A stretch of 64,000 bases of DNA from Malus domestica (lineage: Eukaryota; Streptophyta; Magnoliopsida; Rosales; Rosaceae). Both the position numbers and the translations under genes were made by a program. Below the pieces are notes generated by a model. The model searched no databases and was not told where the DNA came from. It saw nothing but the letters and a program-made list of their open reading frames with translations. Below, in pieces: positions 32,552 through 36,432 of this stretch; position 1 is the stretch's first letter, and the number at the start of each line of letters is the position of its first letter. Location of the stretch: NCBI RefSeq assembly GCF_042453785.1, contig NC_091665.1, positions 5,219,501-5,283,500 of the forward strand. Direction: 5' to 3'.

Positions 32552-34733
32552 ATGGGGAAAGGGAAATCATTGTTGCCTCCTGGTTTTCGGTTTTCTCCAA
32601 CTGATGTAGAGCTTGTACAATATTATTTGAAGAGGAAAGTAATGGGGAAAAGACTCCGTTATAACTTCGTTGCAGAGGTTGACATTCATAAGTACGCTCC
32701 TTGGGATCTTCCAGGTAATATGTCATTCTAACTTATTTTCTTTCTTGTCTTTATTTTATATACCTTGTCATTGTAATTAGCCTTGGCTTTCCTGCTTTGT
32801 AATATGTTTCTGAGTGTGTTGTGCTTTTATTTTTCAGACAAATCTAGTTGGCAAAGTGGAGATTTAAAATGGTACTTCTTTTGTCCGACAGAAAGGAAGT
32901 ACCCAACTGGGGCTAGAACGAAACGTACAACTGAATGTGGTTACTGGAAGGCCACAGGAAATGACAGATCTGTTCTTTACAATGGTGAAGTTGCGGGCAA
33001 GATAAAAACATTGGTTTTTCATACAGGTCGAGCTCCAAAAAGAGACCGAACAGACTGGGTTATGCATGAGTATAGGCTTGAATCTAAGGACCTAGCTAAT
33101 CGTGGTGTGCCTCAGGTAGATGATACTCTTCCTCTCATAATTTTGTATTCTTCCTTGTTTTCTGTAAAATTTGTTTGTCAATCTGCACCGAGTTTGTAAT
33201 ATACTTTCCTTTTGTAAAGATTTGTTATTCTTTAATGTTTCAGCTGATTAGAATTTTTTCATGCTTCTGAATCGAACTGTTACTTTGTACAATTTCTTAT
33301 ACTGCTTTGGATGGCTAGCCGGTGTTGATTACTTTTTCTGTCTTTCTCATATTGCAGGAATCGTATGTGCTCTGTACCATTTTTCAAAAAGAAGGGCCAG
33401 GGCCAAGAAATGGTGCACAATATGGTGCGCCCCTTATGGAGGAAGACTGGAGTGATGATGAGGCTGAAAATTGTTCAGAAGCAGTCCCACATGCAAATAT
33501 GCCTGTACCAAACCTTGTTCTGCCGAGTGACTACAATAGTTCCATCACTACTAGCACGTACACCCATGATGGTATACGCATAGGTCCTTCATCTGAATCG
33601 TGTATATCAGATGTTGTACCACTTTCTTGCAATGTTTCCCAACTGGTTTCCAGCAATCATGCTACAGTGGAGGAGCCTCATACTTCTGAGGATGATATCC
33701 TGTCAATGTTGGCTTGCTTCTCAGAAGAAAGCCCTTCATTATTTGAAGAAAACGAAAAAAATAAGGTGTGTAATACGCCCTTCTCTCTTTTCTGCATGTA
33801 GTTTATAGCATTCATGGTTTAATAGTAAGTGGAACCACCAATCATGAAATGAATTTACATTTTCTGAGTGGTGGAATCGTCACTACTATAAAATTGAGAA
33901 AGGTTTATGTTGTGAGACTATGCTCATGCTATAGCTTTCCAATGCATATGTGATAATGTGGCAAGATAGAGTTAGGTTAGATTTTGTTGAATTCAAGGAG
34001 TTAGCGTCTATACTTTCTGTGACTGAAGTTCTATCACTGATGTCGTAGAGGTTGTTGAAAGATACAAATTAGCCTTTGTGTGGAAGTTGGGACTCTATAG
34101 TCGTTGTTAATAATTATAATACCAATGTTATTTCTTGAAGCTAGAATTTAAAATTGGATGGTGTGACTGTCCGAGTTTATAAATAGATGGCGTGCCTTGA
34201 GAAGTTGATGGTTTTGAATGTCGTTTTTGATAATTTCATTATGTACTACAGCATCTTGAATATCTTATGCATCTATATCTGTTTATAGAACAAAATTAAA
34301 TCCGTAAGTACTTGAGTACAAATAAACTATCTTGCAAGTGTTCTTTGAACTTCTAAAGTACGTTAATGTAGAACTTCTTCATTATTTGCAGGAGGTTGGT
34401 AATGCCATTCCTGTTGGAAATGCTAGTGCAACGCCTCATCTCGTTATTAATGATATGTATGACAATTTAGGAGATTTGGGCAAGGCAGCAAGAGTCGGTG
34501 AAGAAGGATGTAGTTTCTCCAGTTTGCCAAATTCTGTTTGTGCTCCGGGTCAAATCCCACTAGGTGACCATGAGCAATATTTGGAGCTGGATGATCTTGG
34601 CGAACCATTGAATTACCGTGATTCTACATACACTCAGCCTCCTTCTATGTTCGGTCAGCCTCATGCTTCGCTGGGAGAGACATCTTTTCAGGGTGAAGAC
34701 CAGTTGAACGTGTTTGATAACGTGAACTTCTGA
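32552..34733 (+). CDS. NAC domain transcription factor, ANAC082-like
   Basis: DNA-binding nuclear transcription factor. Exons 32552-32714, 32838-33115, 33358-33765 and 34392-34733 join to 396 residues with correct phases. All five NAC subdomains are present: A ([20 protein letters not shown]), B (PWDLP), C ([14 protein letters not shown] and [12 protein letters not shown]), D ([20 protein letters not shown]) and E ([28 protein letters not shown]). The C-terminal half is acidic and Ser-rich, fitting an activation domain. No C-terminal membrane helix is visible, so it is not an NTL type. QYGAPxxEEDW after subdomain E recalls the ANAC078/082/103 group; the exact orthologue is uncertain. Substitutions such as LCTIF for the usual LCRIF are mild. 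Confidence 0.93.
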
Positions 34734-35014: not shown

Positions 35015-35022
35015 ATTATAAT

Positions 35023-36424
35023 TAGGGATGGGCAAAATACTCATGGTATGGGTAATCGCGGTTACCCGTTCATTTAAAGTTGATGATTATAGTTATGGGT
35101 AACCATTTAAACAAATAAACGGTTATGGGTATAACCGTTTATCCATGAAATTTAAATGGACGGTTATGGGTATTATCCGCGGTTATAACGGGTATCCATC
35201 GGTTATGGTTAATATTCATGGTTATAACGGGTATTCATTTACCTATTTAATTTAATATATGTAAAATTAAAAAAAAAAATTAAAAACCCTCAGAGTTACA
35301 ACTCCGTCACTCTCTTTCTCCGCCTTTCGACTTCATCACTCTCTCTCTCCGTCGCTCTCTCTTTGCGCCTCTCTCTCCGTCGCTATCTTTTTGTGACAGA
35401 GCCTCTGCTAATTGAAGTTGACCAAATATACCATCTTGCCTGCCCTGCTTCCCCGATCTTCTACAAGTACAATCCTGTAAAGGTGTGTCTATCAATATTT
35501 TGTGTAAATTTGAGGAAAGTGAATAATCGAACTTTAAGTGTTAACGGGAACTGAAATAATAGTGGAAAGTTACCTTCTTGTGTAACAGACAATAAAGACG
35601 AATGTGATTGGTACATTGAACATGCTGGGACTTGCGAAGCGAGTCGGAGCAAGGTTTGATTATGTAGTTCTGTCTTCTTTGATTTAGCCATCTTTCTATG
35701 TCTTTTTTGTTTCTCACGGTATGAACTTGAATCAGGATTTTGCTTACATCTACTTCCGAGGTGTACGGGGATCCTCTCATTCACCCCCAGACTGAGAGCT
35801 ATTGGGGAAATGTGAATCCTATTGGTACAGTGTTCATTCTGGAAATTTGATTCTCTCTTTTTCTGGATGTTATCTAGTAAATTCCCTCTCTATATTTTGA
35901 CATAATGCGATAATTGGTTAGCGAGAATCGAACTAAGGACCTCGAATATTTCCCCCAATAGCTATATAGAAAAATATCGTTCGTAAACTATTATTTCAAT
36001 TATTGGAATTATACGAGGACTTAAATGATTAAAATAGGGAAATGTATGCTAAAATGTACTTATAATGGTGTTTAATTGTCAGAAAATAAAAATTATGACA
36101 AATTTTTCTTTTGTAATTTTCAAATTGTTAAAAAAATAATGTAGACGAGAGAAAAAAAAAAGGGTAAATGGGTAAAAAAAGGATACACGGGCGAAAAAAT
36201 GGGTAAACGGGTAAATGGTTATGGTTATGGTTAAATGGGTAAATGGTTATGGATAAATGGGTACACAGTTATGGGTATGGATAACCGTTTATAAACGGTT
36301 ATGGTTATGGGTATAACCATTTATGTAATTACCCAACGGGTAAACGGTTATGCGGGTATGAATATAAACGGTTATGGGTAAAATAACCGCGGTTAACCGC
36401 CCGCATAACCATTGCCCATCCCTA
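35023..36424. mobile_element. hAT-type non-autonomous element carrying a host gene fragment
   Basis: 1402 bp. Both ends read TAGGGATGGGCAA inward (13-bp inverted repeats), flanked by an exact 8-bp TSD, ATTATAAT, at 35015-35022 and 36425-36432; this is the hAT signature. The sub-terminal regions are packed with GGTTATGGGTA and AAACGGTTAT motifs, as expected of hAT transposase-binding regions. No transposase is present. The centre carries three exons of a UDP-xylose synthase gene (35400-35824). Confidence 0.93.
35400..35824 (+). pseudogene. Captured UDP-glucuronate decarboxylase (UXS) gene fragment
   Basis: Three exon pieces with intact AG and GT borders: 35400-35482 (..PLLIEVDQIYHLACPASPIF..), 35589-35653 (TIKTNVIGTLNMLGLAKRVG..) and 35736-35824 ([18 protein letters not shown].. 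then YWGNVNPI). The phases (1, 0, 2, 1) join without a stop and give about 79 residues of the Rossmann-fold SDR core, including the TSEVYGDPL segment. The catalytic YxxxK that follows in real UXS proteins, and both termini, are absent. Retained introns mean that genomic DNA and not an mRNA was copied. It is a fragment and cannot make an active enzyme by itself. Confidence 0.93.
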
Positions 36425-36432
36425 ATTATAAT

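Follow-up and report, generated by a model that had tools for sequence, protein, structure and literature searches.

Gene fragments borne by transposons are known from Pack-MULE and Pack-CACTA elements and from capture by Helitrons, and in this respect these resemble the element described here; they belong to different superfamilies, which have their own ends, lengths of duplication, and transposases. Capture by hAT elements, which the earlier note on this locus had held to be less well described in dicots, is already published: maize Ds elements carry gene fragments that include exon-intron pieces, with two exons and the intervening intron in Ds2-22 (PMC3260210), and Pack-hATs are described in the texts on maize (PMC8903248) and on animals (PMC8277862). 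As the text of PMC3260210 presents them, maize Ds2 and Ds-l4 are the systems with which our family shares hAT membership, 8-bp duplications, and intron-containing fragments copied from other chromosomes, as well as AAACGG subterminal repeats, which in our window element are clear only at the right end. Unlike them, the apple-like family has other ends, six traced donor-like genes, serial capture with a shared junction, and a second, transposed element copy that carries the piece of UDP-xylose synthase (UXS). The Pack-hATs of maize and rice, as given in the main text of PMC8903248, likewise enclose coding DNA between non-autonomous hAT ends, form clusters of related elements, and include existing elements that acquire more sequence. 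That Pack-TYPE survey covers maize, rice, and Arabidopsis, whereas the genome studied here is apple-like, and its main text contains neither Malus nor apple. Animal Pack-TIRs, including Pack-hAT-N8_XT, are TIR elements with captured DNA and multicopy cases, and where microhomology is present at their breakpoints it is short (median, 2 bp); unlike the present case, their single-copy examples are mostly explained in that text by gap filling without transposition (PMC8277862). The word hAT does not stand alone in the main text of a 2026 review (PMC13317346), nor does "capture" occur in the main text of PMC11197308, on Rosaceae transposons. Among the papers listed in literature searches, judged by title and start of abstract and with most subscription journals outside the searches, none reports that hAT elements have captured genes in Malus. 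The element is therefore of a known kind, and what we add is an apple-like Pack-hAT family with layered captures. Such layered elements offer a way to study how cut-and-paste transposons pick up genes, and raise the question of whether genes that a genome has since lost can leave a record in captured exons.

The window, by which we mean the whole stretch of 64,000 nucleotides that was analysed (C5:5219501-5283500), contains a non-autonomous hAT element at positions 35023-36424 (1402 bp). Its termini are TAGGGATGGGCAA...TTGCCCATCCCTA, a pair of 13-bp inverted repeats (left, 35023..35035, + strand; right, 36412..36424, - strand), and ATTATAAT lies on each flank (35015..35022 and 36425..36432, unstranded), so that the 13-bp inverted ends and the exact 8-bp duplication claimed earlier are both present. 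Termini of the type TAGGG/CAGGG are usual for hAT. Since ATTATAAT is palindromic, being its own reverse complement, the window copy alone is no proof of a direct duplication; this is shown by a copy on C14, with CCCCTAAC on both flanks, and by other siblings. Among the 31 elements that we read, the window element included, the 8-bp duplication is exact in 23 and has one mismatch in 4, while C10c has two mismatches, C15b has three, and C6b and C16b have no recognisable duplication. The left family sequence (35023..35384, + strand) consists of subterminal repeats and a CT-rich leader and is common to siblings without UXS; the right one (35964..36424, + strand) carries AACGG-type subterminal repeats. 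AACGG is enriched at both ends (6 at the right, a count reached in 2 of 1000 shuffles; 5 at the left, reached in 3 of 1000), and AAACGG clearly at the right end only (5, reached in 0 of 1000, and 2 at the left, reached in 60 of 1000). In the 651 Mb of the genome (19 contigs), the left-end pattern (47 bases) occurs at 96 places and the right-end pattern (48 bases) at 103 when at most 3 mismatches are allowed, and reversed-pattern controls gave 0 places. The window element has no match to the transposase region of its family at an E value of 1e-8. We place the family in hAT because a relative with the same ends (C16:39007074-39010802, 3729 bp) carries zf-BED (E 8.8e-7) and Dimer_Tnp_hAT (E 5.8e-34); this copy is incomplete, with a stop between its PF02892 and PF05699 pieces.

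Inside the element lies part of a gene of sugar metabolism, UXS, all on the + strand: exon A (35393..35482), which by eye has lost its first 1 or 2 bases and the preceding splice acceptor; retained intron 1 (35483..35588, GT...AG); exon B (35589..35653); retained intron 2 (35654..35735, GT...AG); exon C (35736..35824); and the start of the following intron (35825..35907), which, as read by eye in the alignment, is shorter than its counterpart in the gene on C7 by a small internal deletion. All remaining GT/AG borders of exons A to C are kept. The UXS fragment with splice borders reported earlier is thus real, although its extent is 35393-35907 and not 35400-35824, the homology reaching to about 35907 by eye and so beyond 35824. 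Copying at the DNA level, also proposed in the earlier note, is borne out by introns 1 and 2 and part of the third, retained with their borders. An extension of the UXS exons beyond the inverted ends can be rejected, as the homology stops within the element. Of the 9 matches listed, and leaving aside the elements on C5 and C14, the C7 gene is closest to the piece (C7:27511271-27511777; 466 of 507 bases identical, 92%); second best is a UXS gene on C1 (87%), presumed to be the whole-genome-duplication partner of the C7 gene. The spliced reading of 82 residues matches structures of UDP-glucuronic acid decarboxylase 1 (E about 1e-40) and aligns to residues 61-142 of 4lk3 (336 residues in the chain), covering roughly one quarter of the enzyme.

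The complete UXS catalytic domain is not present in the 82-residue reading, and presumably the catalytic motif is absent from it. Its open frame had been taken as a possible sign of expression; translation is not implied, however, as the stretch from the upstream stop at 35225 to exon A contains no ATG in frame, and for the same reason a UXS peptide starting from an upstream ATG was rejected. The captured UXS exons are probably non-functional passengers.

The UXS element was mobilised after capture, for a second copy that bears UXS (C14:7928272-7929527) has its own exact duplication. The C14 copy lacks element positions 344-486, so that exon A is gone, and TTTG is found on both sides of this deletion. 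Comparison of the two copies gives 4 differences in 411 sites for the UXS part, 1 in 44 for a remnant of lipase sequence described below, 10 in 457 for the right part, and 17 in 342 for the left part. With two loci bearing distinct duplications, many siblings, and strong homology, chance or an assembly artefact is already refuted as an explanation and its probability is negligible; we found no point in its support. The left flank of the window element matches a locus on C10 at 84-87%, and this locus is probably the duplication partner of the flank upstream of the element. Within its 3149 bases neither an element end (allowing up to 2 mismatches) nor any match to the element was found; except for one 24-base piece, the similarity ends 81 bases short of the insertion point, so that the exact empty site could not be aligned. 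Upstream of the element, the window reads as a NAM (NAC) domain at 32777-33199 (+); more reading frames, which may belong to that NAC gene, follow as far as 34733 (+), 0.3 kb short of the element.

Two exons of a lipase-like gene are found in C16a (C16:5696658-5698034), a close sibling of the window element. The donor-like gene lies at C16:6788532-6789056 and is 94% identical to the C16a piece; the lipase label comes from similarity to solved lipases, with a query that carried a tail from a paralog on C13. In the window element, 55 bases directly to the right of the UXS piece (35909..35963, + strand) are a remnant of an intron of the lipase gene, 94.5% identical to the donor, and this stretch is contiguous with the lipase exons both in C16a and in the donor gene. 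The remnant occurs in five of the eight matched places (C16a, the UXS elements on C5 and C14, the lipase gene, and the C13 paralog), its junction to the transposon end is by eye identical in C16a and the window and C14 elements, and six other relatives that we compared have different sequence at this position. In the lipase gene the remnant and the exons are contiguous, which means that the lipase capture came first and that UXS replaced most of it. The captures in the window element were therefore serial, and the layers of one element give the order of the two, lipase and then UXS. On the left, CTTTTTGTGA (35387..35396, + strand; 10 bp, its end overlapping the start of exon A) may be a further remnant of the lipase capture, on the basis of CTTTTTGTGAGCAGCC, which is common to C16a, C10c, C6c, and the lipase donor.

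We are highly confident that the window element is a Pack-hAT, that is, a non-autonomous hAT element whose interior has been replaced by host-gene DNA. It would have been moved in trans by an hAT transposase of its own family, and a break or gap inside it would have been repaired by copying another locus. The copied DNA would then have been rejoined with almost no homology, donor and acceptor sharing by eye one base at each UXS junction. Lipase DNA was taken in first and UXS DNA later replaced most of it; the mechanism of capture is inferred from end products, and the left lipase remnant has only 10 bp. A model of tandem insertion and fusion has been proposed for Pack-TYPE elements including hAT (PMC8903248, main text), and under such a Pack-CACTA/Pack-TYPE scheme two elements flanking a UXS region would have been mobilised together, without template-switching repair. 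A family left end does lie at C7:27475129, at a distance of about 36 kb from the UXS gene of C7, but with its 3 mismatches it may be a chance occurrence; in the 10 kb surrounding that gene, UXS itself is the only match to the element, and no second set of ends was seen inside the window element. Moreover, the UXS piece sits inside an element that already held a lipase capture, as interior replacement predicts. We therefore consider joint mobilisation improbable and retain interior replacement by repair.

The window element belongs to what is, on sequence similarity, a Pack-hAT family with several captured genes. Among the 31 elements read (the window element included), 14 have a match to one or more of six host genes, namely UXS, lipase, RING-type, F-box/LysM, coiled-coil, and bHLH-MYC_N, with C8b counted through 62-bp and 36-bp matches to the F-box locus only; 10 match the transposase region, 2 of them also host genes, and 9 match neither. 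Elements entered the set through similarity to the window element or through their length (about 1-3.7 kb), and of the end pairs from the pattern search those spaced between about 1 and about 4 kb were read, so 14 of 31 is not a genome-wide rate. The transposase reference was C16e itself, which C9 matches by 28 bases, and the bHLH reference was the piece of C1b itself, backed by a separately found donor-like gene. F-box, LysM, and bHLH-MYC_N are Pfam matches, while the RING-type name is our reading of a CxxC stretch without a Pfam match and the coiled-coil label is likewise a reading. Donor-like genes were found for all six captured genes, the best identities being 94% for lipase, 96% for RING-type, 95% for coiled-coil, 97% over 193 bases for bHLH, and, for F-box, 87% over the whole query with single pieces up to 98%. 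Judged by translations, all six traced genes lie in the sense of the transposase. The earlier claim that an hAT element took three UXS exons stands, and siblings with and without UXS exist. A single isolated capture was rejected, given the 14 elements that match one of the six genes.

The captured UXS and the C7 gene have a Ks of 0.13-0.15 and a Ka of 0.005, compared with a Ks of 0.26-0.27 between C7 and C1. They differ at 16 of 188 sites in introns 1 and 2 (32 of 258 when the third-intron part is included), and the capture is thus not simply young, as had been suggested. With C1 used to polarise the changes, 4 synonymous changes (5 with the junction base) and 0 replacement changes fall on the captured branch, besides one ambiguous synonymous site and 12 noncoding changes in 231 sites (15 in 244 with wider bounds). 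At the four synonymous sites the paralogs on C3, C11, and C4 never share the captured base, by eye. Neutral decay expects about three replacement changes per synonymous change, and the neutral chance that 4 of 4 are synonymous is 0.003-0.007; replacement changes (0 of 182 sites) differ from noncoding ones (12 of 231) with p 0.0016, and from those in introns 1 and 2 only (5 of 185) with p 0.06, the changes being few, the synonymous-only test chosen after the data were seen, and the result weaker in the narrower site set. Other captures served as controls, and on their captured branches the ratios of replacement (with stop) to synonymous changes are 5:4 for lipase, 13:8 for coiled-coil, and 9:4 for RING; all three show replacement changes, and the lipase and coiled-coil captures each carry one stop. 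The 0:4 of UXS differs from the pooled controls with p 0.03, based on the 9:4 obtained for RING with a sister copy as outgroup (a second outgroup gives 5:3), and from lipase alone with p 0.10.

This pattern hints that the UXS donor may have been a working copy, missing from the assembly and sister to the C7 gene: on the reading that we favour, most of the divergence would have arisen in a still-working donor gene, so that this sister copy, and not the C7 gene of today, would be the donor. Whether the split between UXS and C7 is older than the lipase capture receives at most a weak answer, since the difference from the lipase capture (32 of 258 against 10 of 213, p 0.003) shrinks with introns 1 and 2 alone (16 of 188, p 0.15) and on the captured branch (12 of 231 for UXS against 14 of 512 for lipase, p 0.13). 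Selection on the captured exons themselves, for example as a short peptide or by giving rise to small RNA that acts on UXS genes, would also account for four polarised coding changes that are all synonymous (junction base excluded) at the neutral chance given above. We regard it as very unlikely: no in-frame ATG precedes exon A, exon A is lost from the C14 copy, and a donor that evolved as a gene before capture gives the same pattern, in a small number of changes. Returning to a working sister copy as donor, we tentatively raise a broader possibility, which we hold to be rather unlikely as a whole: the element may keep exons of a UXS copy lost from the genome (a lost duplicate, another haplotype, or a related species through hybridisation), within an hAT family that serially swaps captured genes behind one leader, in the sense of the transposase, and so acts as a serial exon-shuffling vehicle.

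Several further observations concern the family. Nine elements (L066, L067, L068, L069, L070, L071, L072, L073, and L078) share pieces of the F-box/LysM locus C12:28465837-28466414, combined differently with other pieces, those of L072 and L078 being at most 62 bp; this suggests exchange among elements or stepwise loss. The interior pieces of C10d and C13a (elements L067 and L068) read as coding antisense to the transposase. C1:25093830-25096756 and C17:30126176-30130711, the latter delimited from end positions and not from a full reading, share a captured first exon of bHLH-MYC_N (99% over 228 bases), which in the C1 element lies upstream of transposase remnants and has donor-like genes on C12 (97%) and C4 (89%). 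Finally, two elements on C17 (C17:9143341-9144935, + strand, and C17:9146393-9148085, - strand) are 94% identical, lie in opposite orientation about 1.5 kb apart, and each have their own exact 8-bp duplication.
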